Below are positions 8,040-49,003 of a stretch of 49,132 nucleotides of DNA, piece after piece. Within the stretch, counting starts at the first letter, position 1. Each line of letters opens with the position of its first letter. Source of the DNA: Halorhabdus amylolytica (GTDB taxonomy: Archaea > Halobacteriota > Halobacteria > Halobacteriales > Haloarculaceae); the NCBI RefSeq assembly GCF_004944975.1, contig NZ_SPQG01000008.1, forward strand, positions 53,400-102,531, given 5' to 3'. The notes under the pieces were generated by a model. That model saw only the letters and a list, made by a program, of their open reading frames with translations. It had not been told where the DNA came from and did no database searches. The position numbers and the translations under genes are program-made.

Positions 8040-8195
8040 GTAGCAAAGGAGAATGATAGTCTTCCCCACAAGAAAGGCACGGAATCGGGTATACAAGCTG
8101 TGAGACAACCGAAAAGGGTGGTGAGATAGTGGGATTCCTGAGATAAATCTTGCTCTAGGATACGAATATCTCTTCTCCGTGCGGCCGGACGGGGG

Positions 8196-8716
8196 GACGG
8201 GGGGCATGAGAGTGTAAATTCTAACGAGAGGGATAGGGAATAGTTCGAATTCAGCGAACCCCACGGGGGGCATGAGAGTGTAAACACCCTACAGATACGC
8301 CGAACAAGCCTTGATAGTTCAGATCTACGGTTCAAGTAGAATCTTTGTAGCTCTATTCGCGTTATTATATATTTTTCGGTTAGTACTAGTTAACTAGTAC
8401 GTAGTACGAAGGCAGAAACGGGTAATAAAACCTGTTATAGTCGGATATTTACTAGAACTAGATCTTCTTCTAATCTTCTTTCTAGGACCTCATAATCCCA
8501 GCTTTATACTCAATCAACCCCTCTTGTTTGAGGCTGGATCGAAACTGGTTGAGGTTTACACTCTTCTGACCCCCGTCCCCCCGGGTTGATACTACTCACT
8601 CTTTTGGCGGAGTTCGAGTTACTCATTTATCGAAGACTGGGTCTTAACCCGTTAGAATTTACACTCTTTCGCCCCCCGTCCTCCAGGCGATCTCCTACAC
8701 TCTTCCGTCCCCTGTA
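8196..8716. repeat. ORB family B flanking the AT-rich unwinding segment
   Basis: Copies at 8196-8219 and 8262-8285 are on the minus strand; copies at 8554-8577 and 8657-8680 and a degenerate one at 8693-8716 are on the plus strand. The four good copies share a 24-base pattern. The two pairs face each other around the AT-rich stretch, which is how Orc1/Cdc6 boxes typically frame an archaeal unwinding element. They differ clearly from family A in the bases between the ACACT core and the G/C tract. Confidence 0.75.
8383..8400. repeat. 18-bp perfect palindrome in the AT-rich origin core
   Basis: GTACTAGTTAACTAGTAC is self-complementary over all 18 bases and lies inside the AT-rich segment between the facing family B boxes. 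It may be a regulator site or part of the unwinding element. Confidence 0.6.
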
Positions 8717-8775: not shown

Positions 8776-10035
8776 ATGTCACAGGGGTTCGGGAACGAGG
8801 ATACTATCTACCAAGATGTCGACGTTCTTGAGGCCGATGTCGGGAAATATAAGCCATCGGAACTTCCCGAGCGGGAGGACGAACTCGACAAATTGCATAT
8901 GGCACTGCGCCCGGTGACGATGGACGGTTCGCCCCGTGACGTCTTGGTGTATGGACCGACTGGTCAAGGTAAGACTGCAGGGGTTCAGTTGAAAGCCGAT
9001 CAACTCCAGGAGTGGGCAGACGAAAACGATCACCAACTCGAAGTCGTTCATATCCCGTGCAAGGGAGCGGACAAATCATATCACGTTCTCACACGGCTCA
9101 TCAAGGAGCTCCGCGAGATTCGGAAGGGGCAGGGCGTCGACGAACCGAGTGGCTACCAGCGAAAACAGCTTTTCGAGATGGTGCTTGACGAACTCGAAAC
9201 TATTGGCGGTACCGTCATCATCATTCTCGACGAGATCGACGCTATCGGCGAAGACGACTATGTCCTGTACGAACTGTCGCGAGCGAACCCAGATCCCGTG
9301 AAAATCGGACTCATCGGTATTACCAACGATTTGCAGTTCCGGAACAATCTCGACGCTGACGTTCGCTCGTCCCTCGGACAACGAGAGATTACGTTTAACC
9401 CATACAATTCTAACCATCTCAAGAATATCCTTGCGCGTCGTGCGGTCCAGGCGCTTCGTGATACCTACTTCGAAGATGGCCAGGAGGATTTCACACATCT
9501 CCGAAGTGATGTCCTCGACGGTGGGACGATTCCACTTGCCGCATCGATGGCAGCTCAAGAGACCGGCGACGCTCGACAAGCCATTGAGTTACTGTCCTAC
9601 GCTTGCGACCTTGCTGATGACGAAGGTATCGGCACTGTTGCCGAGCGTCACGTCCGCGCCGCGAAAGAGGAAATCGAGAAAGAAGCCCTGATCGATACAA
9701 TCGGCGCTGAAACGACACAGCGCAAAATCGCGTTGCTGACTGTCGTCTCGGCCGAGTTAAATGATTCAACCGGAGAGACGACCAACCTTCACCGGTTGTA
9801 TCTGGAACTCTGTGGATACATTGATACGAATACGTTGAAGCAACACACGTTCCGTGAGAAGCTCAACGACCTCGTTCACTCGAACGTCTTGGCGAAAGAT
9901 CGTCATGGTCGCGGCCGGGGACAGGGAATGTCAAATACATATTCACTCGCTGGTGACGTCGATCCGGAATCCGTCCTTGACACCCTCGAGGACGACAGCC
10001 GTGTCGGTGATATCGTGGATATTGTCCGGTCGTAG
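8776..10035 (+). CDS. cdc6: Orc1/Cdc6 replication initiator
   Basis: A 419-residue Orc1/Cdc6 family AAA+ initiator of normal length. Walker A is GPTGQGKT at residues 60-67, Walker B is LDEID at about 151-155, a sensor-1-like GITND follows, and the C-terminal third is the winged helix that contacts origin boxes. It would bind the adjacent ORBs and recruit MCM. ATG 8776 is supported by the TATA spacing. The gene is bracketed by related 46-bp ORB-type composites at 8696-8741 and 10042-10087. It is the likely partner of family B boxes because these lie closest; that pairing is inference. Confidence 0.92.
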   Translation: MSQGFGNEDTIYQDVDVLEADVGKYKPSELPEREDELDKLHMALRPVTMDGSPRDVLVYGPTGQGKTAGVQLKADQLQEWADENDHQLEVVHIPCKGADKSYHVLTRLIKELREIRKGQGVDEPSGYQRKQLFEMVLDELETIGGTVIIILDEIDAIGEDDYVLYELSRANPDPVKIGLIGITNDLQFRNNLDADVRSSLGQREITFNPYNSNHLKNILARRAVQALRDTYFEDGQEDFTHLRSDVLDGGTIPLAASMAAQETGDARQAIELLSYACDLADDEGIGTVAERHVRAAKEEIEKEALIDTIGAETTQRKIALLTVVSAELNDSTGETTNLHRLYLELCGYIDTNTLKQHTFREKLNDLVHSNVLAKDRHGRGRGQGMSNTYSLAGDVDPESVLDTLEDDSRVGDIVDIVRS

Positions 10036-30327: not shown

Positions 30328-31164
30328 ATGAAGAAGAAGCCAGACGGCAATAGCGGACTGCCGTCCCTTTCCCGTACGTTCTCTCTCGAGGAAGTCAACA
30401 TGGATTTGACCATGTGCGGCCTTTTCCCTGATCGAACGGAAGAGATCGCTGAGTTGTACCGTGTATATGGGAACTGGAACGAGGCCAAAGAGATCTGGTT
30501 CGAGGAACGACGTGCGAACCGCAGCACTAGAGGGAGTTCCCAGAAAATATACCGCGTTCTCTCATCACGGCTCAAAAATACCCCTGCTCGCCTTCCCAAC
30601 CCGAGTGAGCTCCCGACTGTGCTGGATGCATGTTCGTCTTCGCAAGAGAAAGCGCAAGTTCTCTACCCCTATCTCGTCGCCGACGACCCGCTCGTTAGAT
30701 ATGTTGTCCACGAATACGCCCGACGGCTTTCCGGCGAATATCCCGAACCACTTGACTTCTCTAATGAGACGCTTATAACTATCCTGAATCAGTTTGAATA
30801 CGCTGACGGGACATCGTTTGACTATGCCGACTCGACGACGGAGCGATGGTGCGAAGGATTCCGGTCGGTAATGCGTGAAATCGGTGTTTTGAAGAATCAG
30901 CAAACGGTCGTCGGCGATCCGCCATCGCTCGGAGAGACAGCACTCCTCGTTGCAATGGGTTATTCGTACGTGCAAGGCGAAGATGAGTGGTTTGAATCAC
31001 CAATCGGTCTTCAGTACCTATTCCAGCCGAGTGCTCGTTGGGAAGAACTCTACAACAGGGCAGCGGAAACGGAGTCGTGGGAGTTCGTAGAACTCCATGG
31101 GAATCTGCAACTCCGGCCGAATGAAGGGCCGTACTCATCGATTACTAGTGAGGAGGGTGAATGA
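30328..31164 (+). CDS. brxA: BrxA family protein (DUF1819)
   Basis: A 278-residue BrxA-like protein: FSLEEVNMDLTMCGLFPDRT, then IAELYRVYGNWNEAKEIWFE at the N-terminus, ELPTVLDACSSSQEKAQVLY then VRYVVHEYARRL in the middle, and WCEGFRSVMREIGVLKNQ near the end. BrxA binds DNA and is a standard component of BREX phage-defence loci. It is the first gene of a tightly packed operon brxA-brxC-brxB-brxC. The stop overlaps the next start as ATGATG. The upstream gap of 139 bases carries the AT-rich promoter (CCTTTTATCTAA at about 30240). Confidence 0.82.
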   Translation: MKKKPDGNSGLPSLSRTFSLEEVNMDLTMCGLFPDRTEEIAELYRVYGNWNEAKEIWFEERRANRSTRGSSQKIYRVLSSRLKNTPARLPNPSELPTVLDACSSSQEKAQVLYPYLVADDPLVRYVVHEYARRLSGEYPEPLDFSNETLITILNQFEYADGTSFDYADSTTERWCEGFRSVMREIGVLKNQQTVVGDPPSLGETALLVAMGYSYVQGEDEWFESPIGLQYLFQPSARWEELYNRAAETESWEFVELHGNLQLRPNEGPYSSITSEEGE

Positions 31165-34100
31165 TGGTAGACGCAACATGGTTTGAAGATTTACCAGAGG
31201 ATTTCGAGGAATCGGTACGAATCGACCGAAAGAACCAGTCAGCAGACGAAATGCAGCACAGGAAACAGGCTATCGAATCATACCACGTCACGGCTGACTC
31301 TCAACGCTTCCTCGAGGACTTCGTCAACCGATTGATTGGCGAAGCCGAAGATATGCGGTCGGGATCGAACTACTGGCTGTACGGCTACTATGGGAGTGGA
31401 AAGAGCCATCTGTTAACAGTTTTGGACGGGCTGATGGATACCAAGTGGCTCCAAGGCCGCTCCGACAAGGTGTGGAGAAACCTCGTTCCGGATGCGTCAA
31501 CGAGTGGGGACCTCGATACGCTCCGCACTCAGTGGAGTGCCGTTCATTCCAAGTATCACGTCATCCCTGTCTCCGTCAACCTGCTCAAGTATCAGGGCCA
31601 GAAGCAACGCAGCTTTAGTGAGATCGTTCTTCGTCATGCCCACCAGAATCCGATTCTCACGGGCGTCAATGACAGTATCTCTACTGGATTGTCCTCCCAG
31701 CTTGATATCGCGTATTTCGAAGACTGGTATCAAACGACCGAATCCTGGCCGGAACGACAGGATCGAGCAGCATCAGTTGTCGAGGGAGTGACACCGGACC
31801 AACCGCAATACGAGTGGAGAACTGATGGTCTCTGGACCGACATCCAACAGTACAGTGCGCTGTCTGATGTTGTGCTCCCGGAGTTGTTCGAGGGCGTAAC
31901 GGGTACACGCGACGGCTACACCGACCTTCAACCCTCGAATATTGACCCAGAAGAGGTTATCAGTCGGTTGGAATCACTGCGGCAGGAGCGTGAAGCGGAG
32001 CTTGAGGAACCGGTCAAACTCGTCCTCCTGCTCGACGAGGTGAGCCTCTTCATCGGAACCGACTTCGAACGGCTCACAGAGCTGCAGACGCTCGCGGAAA
32101 ACGTCGACGACATCGGAGACGGCGACATTCAGCTCGTTGCGACGGCGCAGGCAAAAATCGAAGACGTCCAACCCAAATTCGCGGCCCACGGGGCCGATTT
32201 CAGTATCGTCAAAGACCGGTTCCCGCACCGGTATCAGCTTCCGAGCAAGCATGTCGGGGAGATCGCCAAACGGCGGCTCTTCCAGAAGTCTGACGTAGGG
32301 GAAGATGCGGTTCGGCGCATCTTGGCTGACGCCGACGTCAAACCTGCTGAGTCGCTCGTGTACAACGAAATTAAACAGAACACGAAGCCGCCACTCGATG
32401 CTATCGATGGTGAGGAACTCGTGGAGTTCTATCCGTTCCTGCCGTACCACGCCCCACTATTCCTCGAAATCCTGTTCAATCTCCGTCGGGAGGCGAACGA
32501 CCCCGCAAAGTCGATCTTCTCGGGAACTGCCCGGGCCATCCTCGCACTAATGCATAGGTTGCTCGACGACTGGGTCGACGAGGGCAAGGGGGATACTATC
32601 GTCTCGCTGGTCGACTTCTTCGACCTGATCGAGCCTGAACTCCGTGAAATCTTACCACAGGACATGCGGGTCGTCGAAGGCGCCGATGAGACGACCGGCA
32701 TCGCTGACGAAGTAGCCGACGACGAAGGTGAGCTTCAAGAGTTCGACCTCGACGTAGCGAAGGCGGTCCTCCTCCTTCAGCACGTCCACGAAATCGTTCC
32801 CCTGAACGAAGGGAATATCGCGGTCGCCGTTATGGATGATCTGAACGGCCAATCGTGGATTAGCACGACCAATCGGGTCGAGGAATCACTGGATCGGCTG
32901 CAGAAGTACATTCGACCGACGCAGGACGAAAGTGGGGCTCGATACCGGTTCGCGACGCAGGAAGAACGCCTCATCTACGACGAGACTGAGGAAAATGAAA
33001 CCAACCCCGACTGGGAAAACATCGTCGAAACCTTGGACAAACATCTCTGGAATCGCATCACTCAGGACCTATCACTTCCAGAGTCAGTCCCGTACGGAGA
33101 ATCTAATGACGAGTACCCCGTATCGTATCAATTCGGACTCGACGGGACAACATTCGAGAGCACTATCGAAGCCGAGGGAGGGCTGGATATCGATGTCGAT
33201 GTGCAGGGTGTCCGCCCAGACATAGAACCGGAGCAAACCGACGAGGACACGCTCTACTGGGAGATCGACACGGCTGGCCTCCAGGACCTTCGCAAACGAA
33301 TGATTGAGTGGTGGGCGCTCCGCGACGCAATTGCCACTCGTGACGCACCGCCAGCGGTCGAGCGTGACCTCGAACAACGTGCCAACGCCGTCCGAAGTAA
33401 GCTGACGAGCGCAATGATGAGTGGTACCTATGCGGTAAAAGATCGGACGGACATCAGCGGTCTCTCAAAGGCGATACAAGCCACTGTCGACGTCGCCTAT
33501 CCCGACGATTTCCACCCGATGATGCTCCAGGTCAACGAAAGTCGGCTTCAAGAACTACGTGAACTTGACGGTGACGCACCGCTCCCCCCTTGGGCACGGA
33601 CAATTCAAGTCCCTTCGTCGAACCAGGATAGAGCGCAGGGCAAACAAACCATACAGCGAAACGTTATGTCTCTCACTGGCCGACAATTGAAAGGCCGCGA
33701 CGAGGGACTCAATATGAACACCGTTCTCGACGGAATCGTCGAGGAGAAACCATTTTACGACGAGGCCCGGCCTGCCCTCTGTGCGATCATCTGGGGATTC
33801 TGTCGGGAGGGGCGACTACTACCGATCGACGAAGACGGAAACACGTTGGAGGATGAAGCTGTCCTTGCCCTCGACAGCCTCTCGACGACGAGGTTGAAAC
33901 TCCTTCCACGCACAAACTTGAGCAAGCTGCTGGAAGAGGGTGGATTCAAGGAGACGACTGAAACAGTCGCTGATGGTCTCATCCACCTTCAAGAAACTAA
34001 CCAGCAGATGCGCTCGAAGCTGACCGGACTTCGCGAAGACATCACCCTGGTCGCCGACACTGACGTGCGAACCGACGAAGTCGCTGGCTTACTCAATGCG

Positions 34101-34913
34101 TTTGCTGATGAGCTGGCAGAACGAATCAATGCTACCGAAAATCGTATCTCAGCCGTTAAGTCACAAGATGACGGTATCGCGGATGTTATCGACGAAACTA
34201 ATGAGGCCCAAGAGTGGATCGAAGAGGTAACTGACGTCTGGAACCGACGTCTTTCGACGCTACAACGGCTCGATGCGATACTAACGATTCGGAACCGCCA
34301 ATTCGACTGGGTAGACGAGGACGCTCAAGCATCCATCGAGTCCCGCTCATCTGCGGTTTCTTCTTTCGATGGTGAGTGGTGGACGACCGACGGATGGAGT
34401 ACACTTTCCGAGGAATTAGTTCCCGATCTTGCACCCGAACTTGAGAGGGGGTGGAACACGTTCGTCGACGAGCGAGGCTTGCGTGAACTAGGCAGTCGCA
34501 TTGAGGAGCATCCATGGGTACGCTCGGCAACTGACCTCCCTACAGGCGTTCTCCACGCCGCTTTCGAGCGAAAATACATCACGCCGATGCGTCAGCTCCA
34601 ACAGTGGTACGAAACGATCGAGTACGCGCTCACAACGCTATCGAGTGATACAGATACAGATGAGATTGTCGAGGTGACGGACGATTTAGCGCGGTTAGAG
34701 CCACTCGTCGACGCGATCGAGTACAGTCCGACTGAGCTGGATGGCCGACTCAACGAACTGTCGTCAATCGTTGGTGATCGAACGCCCGAAGACATCGATC
34801 AAATCGGCATCGTTCCTGACGATCGGCAGAAACTAAATCGCCGGTTGGAGCATCTCGTGGAACAGCAAGATCTTGAGATCGAGGAGACTGACGAAGGGGT
34901 GATTATTCGATGA
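31161..34913 (+). CDS. brxC: BrxC/PglY-type P-loop protein, first copy
   Basis: A 1250-residue BREX ATPase. Walker A is YGYYGSGKSHLLTVL near residues 74-88; Walker B is VKLVLLLDEVSLFIG at about 283-297, followed by QLVATAQAKIEDVQ. The remaining 900 residues are mostly helical with coiled-coil stretches, and match the usual length of BrxC (about 1200). BrxC is an essential AAA+ component of BREX but its mechanism is not settled. It is joined by ATGA overlaps to brxA and brxB. The presence of a second BrxC-type gene in the same operon points to the BREX type 5 arrangement. Confidence 0.85.
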   Translation: MMVDATWFEDLPEDFEESVRIDRKNQSADEMQHRKQAIESYHVTADSQRFLEDFVNRLIGEAEDMRSGSNYWLYGYYGSGKSHLLTVLDGLMDTKWLQGRSDKVWRNLVPDASTSGDLDTLRTQWSAVHSKYHVIPVSVNLLKYQGQKQRSFSEIVLRHAHQNPILTGVNDSISTGLSSQLDIAYFEDWYQTTESWPERQDRAASVVEGVTPDQPQYEWRTDGLWTDIQQYSALSDVVLPELFEGVTGTRDGYTDLQPSNIDPEEVISRLESLRQEREAELEEPVKLVLLLDEVSLFIGTDFERLTELQTLAENVDDIGDGDIQLVATAQAKIEDVQPKFAAHGADFSIVKDRFPHRYQLPSKHVGEIAKRRLFQKSDVGEDAVRRILADADVKPAESLVYNEIKQNTKPPLDAIDGEELVEFYPFLPYHAPLFLEILFNLRREANDPAKSIFSGTARAILALMHRLLDDWVDEGKGDTIVSLVDFFDLIEPELREILPQDMRVVEGADETTGIADEVADDEGELQEFDLDVAKAVLLLQHVHEIVPLNEGNIAVAVMDDLNGQSWISTTNRVEESLDRLQKYIRPTQDESGARYRFATQEERLIYDETEENETNPDWENIVETLDKHLWNRITQDLSLPESVPYGESNDEYPVSYQFGLDGTTFESTIEAEGGLDIDVDVQGVRPDIEPEQTDEDTLYWEIDTAGLQDLRKRMIEWWALRDAIATRDAPPAVERDLEQRANAVRSKLTSAMMSGTYAVKDRTDISGLSKAIQATVDVAYPDDFHPMMLQVNESRLQELRELDGDAPLPPWARTIQVPSSNQDRAQGKQTIQRNVMSLTGRQLKGRDEGLNMNTVLDGIVEEKPFYDEARPALCAIIWGFCREGRLLPIDEDGNTLEDEAVLALDSLSTTRLKLLPRTNLSKLLEEGGFKETTETVADGLIHLQETNQQMRSKLTGLREDITLVADTDVRTDEVAGLLNAFADELAERINATENRISAVKSQDDGIADVIDETNEAQEWIEEVTDVWNRRLSTLQRLDAILTIRNRQFDWVDEDAQASIESRSSAVSSFDGEWWTTDGWSTLSEELVPDLAPELERGWNTFVDERGLRELGSRIEEHPWVRSATDLPTGVLHAAFERKYITPMRQLQQWYETIEYALTTLSSDTDTDEIVEVTDDLARLEPLVDAIEYSPTELDGRLNELSSIVGDRTPEDIDQIGIVPDDRQKLNRRLEHLVEQQDLEIEETDEGVIIR

Positions 34914-46247: not shown

Positions 46248-46604
46248 TTAATAATCGTAGCCCCAGTCCCGAAGAATAGCTGCCGTTTCGTCGGGATTTT
46301 GGATGCCAGCTAGAAGAGCCGCTTCGACGACGTCAGTTTTGTAGACCCGGTCGTCCGAAAGCATATCTTCCAGGTCGCGTTGTAGCTTCCCAAGTTCATC
46401 CTCAGTGTCTTCCTGGATGAACATCGGCGTTTGTGATCGGTCGTCTTTCACGTTATCACGAGCATACAGATACGGGAGCTGCTTTGATTCGTCATCCTGG
46501 CGTTCCCGTTGGGTCTCTGTTTCAATCGGATCCTCGAGTTCGACTTCGCTTCCACTCTCTTCGTCTTCATCGGCGAAGGGATCAGCGCCAGCACCGGATT
46601 TCAT
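46248..46604 (-). CDS. ParA-associated small acidic protein
   Basis: A 118-residue protein: a disordered, very acidic N-terminus (DPFADEDEESGSEVELEDP), a short conserved-looking SQTPMFIQEDTEDELGKLQR segment and a helical C-terminus (TDVVEAALLAGIQNPDETAA). Its start overlaps the parA stop by four bases (ATGA), so it is made with ParA. By position it should be the ParB-like partner or a ParA regulator that binds the 13-bp repeat array, but no classic ParB or ribbon-helix-helix motif is clear. Confidence 0.65.
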   Translation of the reverse strand: MKSGAGADPFADEDEESGSEVELEDPIETETQRERQDDESKQLPYLYARDNVKDDRSQTPMFIQEDTEDELGKLQRDLEDMLSDDRVYKTDVVEAALLAGIQNPDETAAILRDWGYDY

Positions 46605-47449
46605 GCTTCCATCACCTCCAGACCAACCTCACTAGCGCACCACTCAGCCAGCGTTTCAAACTTCTCGAGAGTGTCACGCTCGTAGTCACGTTCTCGCTTG
46701 CGGTGCTCGGGAATATATTTGAAGGCTGTACATTGCTTGTTCCAGCACCCCTCGATCAGCGATGAGCGCTCCCTGAACACCACTGGAACAGCATATGGGC
46801 CGTCTTGTACCTCGGTGATGATCTGCTGCTGGTCTCTGGTGTCCTTGTACTTGTTCGGAACAATCCCCATGACACCGACGTCAATCGATAGCTGCTCTTC
46901 AAGTCCTAATACGAGGTCTTCTAAGCCGCTCACACTTTGTGATCCCTTTCCAGTCGGTTCGAAGGGAATAATCAGCGAACGAGTCGCATGAATGGCGTTG
47001 TAGACCTTAGTATCGGCCGTCGCAGCTGGATCGATCAGGATTACGTCGTACTTGTCTTGCACTCCAGCTTCCCGAAGAACTCGAAGCAGCTGTTTGTTTA
47101 CGTTGAATGATTCTCCGAAGTCCGCAGCTTCGTTTGCCCGTCGCTGGAGGTGTTTCGATATCTGTTCCAGCATATTGTGGCTGGGTATGATATCCATTCC
47201 TTCGGCTTCGCGGATTATTGGCTCAAGCGAGCCCTCGGATCGACCGACGAGATACCGAACGAGATTGTTTGCCTCTGGATTATCGCGCTCGTCGTCGACA
47301 TCCAATAAGTACGAGAGGCTCGCATCTTGTGGGTCGAGGTCGATCAAGAGCACTTCATGGCCGGCGTCGCTGAGTGCACGTCCCAGATTCGCCGTCAGCG
47401 AGGTCTTGCCGACGCCGCCGGCTTCACTGTAGACCGTTGCAGTAAGCAT
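46601..47449 (-). CDS. parA: ParA/Soj family partition ATPase
   Basis: A 282-residue ParA. The deviant Walker A is SEAGGVGKTSLTANLG at about residues 8-23, followed by DAGHEVLLIDLDPQDASLSY (A'), Walker B DVILIDPAATADT, and IIPFEPTGKGSQSVSGL. It partitions the replicon by ATP-dependent movement on the nucleoid. On the minus strand, a TATA-like TTTATATTC at 47472-47480 lies about 25 bases upstream of the ATG, giving a leaderless transcript. The 13-bp repeats start directly upstream, overlapping the promoter, so partition complex formation probably represses parA. Confidence 0.92.
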   Translation of the reverse strand: MLTATVYSEAGGVGKTSLTANLGRALSDAGHEVLLIDLDPQDASLSYLLDVDDERDNPEANNLVRYLVGRSEGSLEPIIREAEGMDIIPSHNMLEQISKHLQRRANEAADFGESFNVNKQLLRVLREAGVQDKYDVILIDPAATADTKVYNAIHATRSLIIPFEPTGKGSQSVSGLEDLVLGLEEQLSIDVGVMGIVPNKYKDTRDQQQIITEVQDGPYAVPVVFRERSSLIEGCWNKQCTAFKYIPEHRKRERDYERDTLEKFETLAEWCASEVGLEVMEA

Positions 47450-47478
47450 GATAGAGTAACTGGCTCAGTAGAATATAA

Positions 47479-47604
47479 AGTTTAGTCAGACGGTATAGCT
47501 ACGTAGTATAGTTACACAGTATAGCTATACGGTATAGCTGAATGGGATAGTTAGTACGTACAGCTATATGATGTGGCTGCTCAGATAGGCTACACAGTAT
47601 AGAT
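47479..47604. repeat. Tandem 13-bp repeats upstream of parA, candidate centromere/operator
   Basis: Copies of (A/G)GTATAGCT start at exactly 13-base intervals: 47492, 47505, 47518, 47531, 47544, 47557, 47570, 47583 and 47596, plus a weak one at 47479. The four from 47492 to 47539 and the last are best conserved; the copies at 47557-47591 are degenerate but hold the phase. Direct repeats of fixed period upstream of parA are typical of partition sites (and of iterons). Confidence 0.75.
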
Positions 47605-47695
47605 GGGTCTCCTGACTGTAGGGGCCAACGATAAAATCTGAATGACTCTTGTAGTGGAGTGTGATGGCTAGCCTGATTCAGTTATCTTTGAGAAT

Positions 47696-49003
47696 TTATC
47701 TCCCATCTTGAACACCTTCGAACGCGTCGGCGAGTTTTTCGCGCATGAACTGCCGCCGGAGTTCACGCTTTCGCTCCGGCGAGAGGTAGTCGTCCATTAC
47801 GACCTGCGCACTGGCCGAGCCCTGGTCGGACGCGATCTCATCGATGTGTTCCTCGACGAGGTCCTCAATCGTCGACGTGTACCGATCATACCAGAATCGC
47901 CGACCCATCTGAGGCACCGGCTTGTGACCGTCGATCGTTTCAGGCAGCTCAGCCTGGCCGGCGAGGTCTTCGAACCATCGAAGAATCGTTCCACGCCGGC
48001 GATGGCCCGTCTCGGAGCGATCAGACGGGAATAGATACCCATTCCAGTCGTTCCGATCGGCAAGTTCGGTCAAGCGATCCCGAGCAACGTCAGCACCGTA
48101 AATCACCGCCACGCTTCCGGGACCGTTCTTCCGCTCGTCAAACTCGATACGAGGATTCTCCTCGTCGAGGACAAGCTGGGAGGCATGCAGCGACGCCACC
48201 TCACCAGAGCGAAGACCCCAGGCGCAAAGCCCGACGACAATTAACTGTTCGCGGGTGGTGGTCGCGGCGTCGAACAGCGCCCGGACGTGCTCGGGAGCCA
48301 GCGGCGGATTCTCGCTGCTGCCGGTATCGTCATCGGCGTCGTCGGTCCAGTCGTAATCCAAGCCATCGGTCGGATTTAGTTTGGCTTCCCGCCGGTTGAG
48401 GAGACTCTCGTAGAAATCGGCAGTGGTTTCATAAATTCGCTGGAGTGTGGTTCTCGAAACACGCTGATCCAGGGCGTCGAACGTCGCCCAGCACGCATCC
48501 ACAGCCGCGCTCTCATCGATATCACCATTCGGGTCGATCGGCGAAAGGATGTCCGCGGTACCGTTCACGCCGGCGTAGGCGCGAACGTAGCGTGCAAGTC
48601 GGTACCGGTGTGTTCGAGCAGTCCCCTCGGCCCAGGAGAGCCGGGATTGTTGGCGGTCGAGGTACCGTTCGAGCGAGTTGATAGTCGGTTCATGGTCGAT
48701 CTCCCAGTCGTACCCCTGGGATTGGAGGTCAAGAACGTCATTCCAGAACTCGGCGAAGGTGGTGTCGTGGTACTCCCGCAGCGCGTACACCAGACCGCGA
48801 AAGCCATTCGCCGACAGCCACTCATGCGTGGGTCGATGGGACTGTGGATCGTGGCCTTCGGTGGCGATCGCCGGCGCAATGTGATCCCAGTACGCGCTCT
48901 CGAGCTCAGCGAGATCCATGAGCGTCCACGACGGGCCTGCTGACCCTTCAGTGCGTGCTGAAGAGTTGGAATCGGGCACGTTCACCGTTTCTATCTGAGA
49001 CAT
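47696..49003 (-). CDS. Tyrosine recombinase/integrase
   Basis: A 435-residue phage-integrase family recombinase. An N-terminal SAM-like core-binding domain lies at about residues 100-210 (YLDRQQSRLSWAEGTARTHR then YRLARYVRAYAG). The catalytic domain has R in CAWGLRSGEVASLHA, K in DERKNGPGSVAVI, a GHKPVPQMGRRFWYDRY segment for the H-x-x-R box (with Q-x-x-R-like spacing) and a likely Tyr nucleophile in VVMDDYLSPERKRELRR. It is longer than Xer proteins. Role: resolution of replicon multimers or integration. It sits 90 bases beyond the 13-bp repeat array, on the same strand as parA. Confidence 0.82.
   Translation of the reverse strand: MSQIETVNVPDSNSSARTEGSAGPSWTLMDLAELESAYWDHIAPAIATEGHDPQSHRPTHEWLSANGFRGLVYALREYHDTTFAEFWNDVLDLQSQGYDWEIDHEPTINSLERYLDRQQSRLSWAEGTARTHRYRLARYVRAYAGVNGTADILSPIDPNGDIDESAAVDACWATFDALDQRVSRTTLQRIYETTADFYESLLNRREAKLNPTDGLDYDWTDDADDDTGSSENPPLAPEHVRALFDAATTTREQLIVVGLCAWGLRSGEVASLHASQLVLDEENPRIEFDERKNGPGSVAVIYGADVARDRLTELADRNDWNGYLFPSDRSETGHRRRGTILRWFEDLAGQAELPETIDGHKPVPQMGRRFWYDRYTSTIEDLVEEHIDEIASDQGSASAQVVMDDYLSPERKRELRRQFMREKLADAFEGVQDGR

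Follow-up and report, generated by a model that had tools for sequence, protein, structure and literature searches.

Upstream of a parA gene on a 158,379-base contig of Halorhabdus amylolytica lies an array of nine 13-bp units that, judging from its sequence and from its relatives in other haloarchaea, is a candidate centromere (parS) and operator. It probably fulfills both roles in a type Ib-like partition system in which one dimer of a ribbon-helix-helix (RHH) partner protein would occupy each 13-bp unit. The array itself, its pitch, its palindromic build, the order of the adjoining genes, the RHH-like model of the partner and the tracking between unit sequence and partner constitute the direct evidence. 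The features are collected in Table 1; "the window" refers to the whole stretch of 49,132 nucleotides that was analyzed.

Table 1. Features of the window that bear on the 13-bp array
Feature	Position	Strand	Basis or remark
ORB-like inverted repeats (TTTACACTCTT...CCCCCGTCC), long, upstream of orc1/cdc6	8190-8715	.	Likely origin
orc1/cdc6 replication initiator gene	8776-10035	+	Cdc6_C match in own genome; TIGR02928, 9.6e-91
Partner gene, 118 aa, overlapping parA by 4 bp	46248-46604	-	Relatives, models, structure comparison
parA, 282-aa Walker ATPase without N-terminal HTH	46601-47449	-	PF13614, 9.9e-22; solved ParA-like relatives
TATA box (TTTATA) of the parA promoter, 24 to 29 bp before the ATG	47473-47478	-	Direct reading; position kept in relatives
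GTCTGAC box (GTCAGAC on the forward strand)	47485-47491	-	Conserved in parA loci and SMC operons
Nine-unit array with a 13-bp step; consensus on the parA strand about TAGCTATACYRTR	47493-47609	-	Phase, shuffles, Tandem Repeats Finder, pitch kept in relatives
Least decayed unit, a perfect palindrome of 12 bp, GTATAGCTATAC	47519-47530	.	Direct reading; dyad centers 6.5 bp apart

The array and the parA promoter

Phase analysis of the window placed nine units on a 13-bp step with zero slips. The self-match of the array was 0.55, 0.58 and 0.62 at shifts of 13, 26 and 39, respectively, compared with 0.14 to 0.33 for the remaining shifts. The score of the array was not reached in any of 20,000 Markov shuffles or anywhere else in the window (the runner-up scored 0.39), and Tandem Repeats Finder and a second repeat finder each recovered it independently. 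These results confirm the 13-base phase without a slip that had been described in the original prediction, which had also counted nine to ten units lying across and upstream of the parA promoter. Nine of these units are real. The tenth, a supposedly decayed repeat next to the TATA box (47480 to 47492), holds a separately conserved promoter box, GTCTGAC, and the array proper therefore comprises nine units. Its position upstream of the promoter likewise stands, but given where the TATA box lies, the array sits just upstream of the core promoter and does not extend across it.

The parA product contains ParA-type domains only, with the Walker A motif at residues 10 to 17. It is a short ParA without an N-terminal DNA-binding domain, as in type Ib ParABS systems, and the repeat array is located upstream of and adjoining the par promoter, also as in these systems. 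The deviant Walker A motif with a signature lysine, which is a further mark of type Ib, was not found in this family: the motif reads SEAGGVGKT, and the residue before GGxGKT is alanine in 71 and serine in 11 of the 82 readable ParA members. An invariant lysine, Lys168, is present among the members and could stand in for the signature lysine. The carboxysome protein McdA also has no signature lysine, yet is an active ATPase (PMC9178275).

The partner protein and the conserved pitch of the array

The partner consists of an acidic, disordered N terminus with an MKSGxGxDPF motif and an RHH-like C-terminal domain. Searches of Pfam, NCBIfam, PHROGs and PDB sequences gave chance matches only and assigned it to no family, and a scan of viral contigs found no relatives. 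In AlphaFold models the N terminus was disordered and the C-terminal domain was predicted with confidence. For both models, the best structural matches obtained with VIA-align were RHH proteins, namely, TraM (Z of 5.3, 2.9 Å over 52 residues), AmrZ (Z of 4.5) and CopG (Z of 4.2, 2.0 Å over 43 residues), followed by several RHH antitoxins; the assignment is one made from monomer models, with Z values of at most 5.3 and Foldseek E values above 1. Foldseek by itself gave no confident match for either model. The C-terminal domain thus resembles an RHH domain in its models, which would provide the small RHH adaptor encoded downstream of parA that is typical of type Ib. It had been predicted that the partner lacks a known ParB fold and may be an adaptor of a new kind. 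This is half right: the partner is a new sequence family, but the model points to an RHH fold, which is already known among plasmid and archaeal adaptors.

A cassette composed of parA, a gene for a partner of about 120 aa and a phased array before parA is widespread in haloarchaea. Of 293 genomes sampled from the order, 172 carried the partner gene, as did 149 plasmid records, and the gene overlapped parA by 1 to 4 bp in nearly all extracted loci. Some copies sit on very large contigs of 3 to 4 Mb, and the cassette is therefore not strictly plasmid borne. We found no published description of it in the open-access literature that was searched. Elsewhere in the window, at 31161 to 34913, a 1,250-aa protein resembles BrxC of BREX systems (NF033441, 7.8e-69, below the curated cutoff) and is perhaps part of a phage defense cluster around 30 to 43 kb.

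The 13-bp pitch is conserved. Of 29 nonredundant parA relatives (identity at least 41%, and less than 85% between any two), 25 had their best period before parA at 13 or 26 bp, and 4 showed no 13-bp period. A score reached by 20 of the 29 loci was reached by 2 of 297 control stretches and by none of 87 shuffles; 100 regions from the opposite flank of the partner gene served as control sequence. The letters of the units vary by lineage and include TAGCTATAC types, TAGCTGGCTnAGC, TACTGGCCAGTAT, TTCATTAGTTGTG and TGAACA. The 13-mer that the original prediction proposed to look for before other haloarchaeal parA genes is accordingly kept in its pitch but not in its letters. Array length also varies, from 3 to 4 recognizable units in Haloarcula relatives to about 20 to 30 in loci L031 and L190 (about 30 in the latter), where the arrays extend 300 to 400 bp upstream. 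In L031, the orientation of the units flips while the 13-bp lattice remains unbroken. Dyad symmetry was detected at centers 6.5 bp apart in the clearer arrays, which indicates that each unit is a palindrome. A sister clade with a parA identity of 32 to 34% uses a 12-bp pitch and GATAGCTATC palindromes; this clade, which includes L147, L150, L163, L164, L171 and others, is found partly on chromosome-size contigs.

RHH proteins read DNA through the strand. The word content of the arrays correlated with the predicted DNA-reading strand of the partner (partial Mantel r of 0.27, P of 0.001, allowing for ParA and for the helices that make up the rest of the domain), and ParA identity added little (r of 0.06, P of 0.09). 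The partner helices correlated equally well (r of 0.28), and the tracking is therefore firmer evidence for the entire partner than for its strand in particular. Partners with the strand VPLFLQ are paired with TGTTCA units, those with TQLHLQ with TCTTAGAT units, and those with VQLFV strands with CAGTAT or CTGGCCAG units. This suggests that the partner is the likely binder of the array. The proposal that the array is a centromere candidate is well supported by both comparisons, the conserved pitch and the unit letters that track the partner.

A proposed role in partition and the alternative readings

As we picture it, the partner would act as an RHH dimer, with one dimer on each palindromic unit, and neighboring dimers at a fixed pitch would form a continuous protein-DNA lattice on the array. 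Because 13 bp corresponds to about 1.24 helical turns, successive dimers would wind around the DNA. The disordered N terminus of the partner may contact ParA and stimulate its ATPase, and ParA bound to the nucleoid would move or tether the plasmid. The complex of partner and array beside the TATA box would regulate the operon, presumably by repression. It is the analogy with omega of pSM19035 that leads us to expect a partner that coats the array, regulates the operon and presents its N termini to ParA. We infer that the partner binds DNA and that the cassette stabilizes the plasmid.

The number of units bears directly on whether the array might be an operator only, through which the partner represses its own operon, with the centromere located elsewhere or with no partition system at all. 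The array immediately precedes the parA core promoter in those relatives that possess one, only five copies of the TAGCTATAC core exist genome-wide, of which three lie inside this array, and the 3 to 4 units of the Haloarcula relatives are few for a centromere. However, the long arrays of L031 and L190 exceed what repression needs, and known partition RHH adaptors use one array for both tasks (PMC9499535), so that a purely regulatory function seems unlikely to us. The moderate strand tracking, the 4 loci without the period, the 12-bp sister clade and the missing signature lysine also count against the reading of the array as centromere and operator of a type Ib-like system. That ParA or a host protein, and not the partner, binds the repeats is very improbable. 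DNA binding is a property of ParA proteins, and the GTCTGAC box suggests the action of host factors at the parA promoter, but this ParA has no N-terminal HTH, ParA similarity fails to predict array sequence once the partner is allowed for, and a host protein would leave the lineage-specific units unexplained.

Two further readings, each of which we consider extremely improbable, invoke recombination or replication. A gene for a XerA-like tyrosine recombinase (47696 to 49003) lies 87 bp from the array end, and an integrase is found at the equivalent place in one Haloarcula relative; both speak for a site or accessory site of this enzyme. The adjacency to a recombinase that had been noted earlier is true in the window but seldom elsewhere: an annotated integrase adjoins parA in only one of five annotated relatives (pNG700), whereas pNRC200, pHME132 and a plasmid of Haloarcula halophila keep the cassette with clearly other neighbors, and pHSR-CO has an unnamed gene at this position. 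To our knowledge, many-unit palindromic arrays are not crossover sites of tyrosine recombinases. The array also has the look of iterons bound by a plasmid initiator, being short, AT-rich, phased and placed before a maintenance gene, and the original prediction had allowed for an iteron-type origin. This part was not supported. The array adjoins no initiator gene; its companions are parA and the partner gene, not a rep gene, and the letters of its units follow the partner. The orc1/cdc6 gene of the same contig has ORB-like inverted repeats of its own beside it, which places the likely origin 37 kb from the array, and in pHSR-CO, a 35-kb plasmid, about 16 kb separate orc1/cdc6 from the cassette.

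Several known systems resemble this one in part. ParF/ParG of TP228, a type Ib system, has a short ParA and a small RHH adaptor with a disordered N terminus (PMC7308502), as here, but is not known to have a 13-bp lattice; the partner described here forms a separate sequence family. Precedents exist for RHH adaptors whose binding repeats overlap their promoters, and the omega repeats of pSM19035 overlap par gene promoters and occur in either orientation (PMC9499535). The delta/omega system of pSM19035, also type Ib, is alike in its short ParA, its small RHH adaptor and its gap-free repeats in either orientation, and the orientation flip of L031 resembles its heptads (PMC9499535). In contrast, those heptads are 7 bp long, nonpalindromic and bacterial, while the units described here are 13 bp long, palindromic and archaeal, the signature lysine is missing, and the adaptors have no detectable sequence relation. 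SegA/SegB of the Sulfolobales shares an archaeal ParA, an RHH adaptor and 13-bp sites upstream of the operon, but SegB recognizes individual palindromes dispersed along the chromosome (PMC12284271), whereas here the units form a tandem array and the core motif is rare elsewhere. The partner profile gave no match among PDB chain sequences at E values up to 10; a distant kinship with SegB may exist. The AspA-ParB-ParA system of pNOB8 also partitions an archaeal plasmid, with a DNA-binding protein that spreads helically on DNA, but it comprises three genes, a winged-helix AspA and one 23-bp palindrome (PMC5120986), compared with an RHH-like partner and two genes in both the window and the annotated relatives. 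McdA, with SGGQGKT, is likewise a ParA-like ATPase without the signature lysine (PMC9178275); McdA/McdB, however, positions carboxysomes and not plasmids, and McdB is unrelated to ParB. In kind the system would be a known one, type Ib-like partition with an RHH adaptor; its novelty resides in the sequence family of the partner, the palindromic 13-bp lattice, the absence of the signature lysine and the promoter box held in common with SMC operons.

A promoter box shared with SMC operons

The GTCTGAC box was exact in 33 of 48 nonredundant parA loci and had one mismatch in 3 more, in most cases at -42 to -45 relative to the start codon. Across the whole of 57 genomes from the family, GTCTGAC-N5-TTTAT had 199 occurrences and the reversed pattern 12. 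Genes behind the sampled boxes include parA, a DUF7518-SMC operon, a small RHH-like gene and a MinD gene. In the converse test (L257 to L286 and L287 to L313), an exact box preceded all 27 chromosomal DUF7518 genes examined, each with SMC behind it, and all 14 true copies of the small RHH-like gene that lies next to nob1; the background rate was 0.7% per 113 bp. Three fragments of another gene (judged by eye) and ten loci that failed a start-site check were left out. This suggests a promoter element of the host that plasmid partition has in common with chromosomal SMC. In some loci (L203, L210, L212, L215, L229 and L231), the box and TATA precede a conserved stretch (CGGGGGCACCnGAAAnGTCACACGCTCCC) in which no clear reading frame is seen and which is perhaps a small RNA or a long leader; Rfam gave no match in the five of these loci that were searched and none in a set of seven box loci.

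The small protein behind the box, which appears RHH-like from its sequence pattern, had no match in Pfam, NCBIfam or PDB sequences. Several of its promoters (L287 to L290) carry two boxes about 11 bp, or one helical turn, apart, GTCYGAC or GTCGGAC followed by GTCTGAC, and these tandem boxes suggest autoregulation. The identification of this protein, which begins MPTRFSVV, as CdrS was dropped, with no ftsZ2 downstream and with nob1 and aIF5B as neighbors (by eye). CdrS is also a doubtful binder of the box: the ChIP targets examined include ftsZ1, dacZ and proteasome genes, and not smc or cdrS. In a cdrS deletion of Halobacterium salinarum, sojA, sojB and sojE are misregulated, with copy-number caveats stated by the authors (PMC7439475). 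This hints independently at an influence of host division circuits on plasmid par genes; it is no evidence for the box itself, because the pNRC200 cassette examined is without one.

These observations raise the possibility, which we put forward tentatively, that a haloarchaeal GTCTGAC element coregulates the SMC operon, the small RHH-like gene (which may encode the regulator) and plasmid parA. Partition would then be tied to the segregation program of the host, and centromeres of constant pitch and fast-changing letters could set incompatibility.

How halophilic archaea sort their many large replicons has been named an open question (PMC5120986). The cassette occurs in over half of the sampled haloarchaeal genomes, and it offers a readable rule for a candidate centromere, a constant 13-bp pitch with lineage-specific letters that follow the adaptor. 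This rule makes binding, stability and incompatibility testable in Haloferax mediterranei (pHME132) and Haloarcula hispanica, and the shared GTCTGAC box provides a lead to a regulator that may join plasmid partition and chromosomal SMC.
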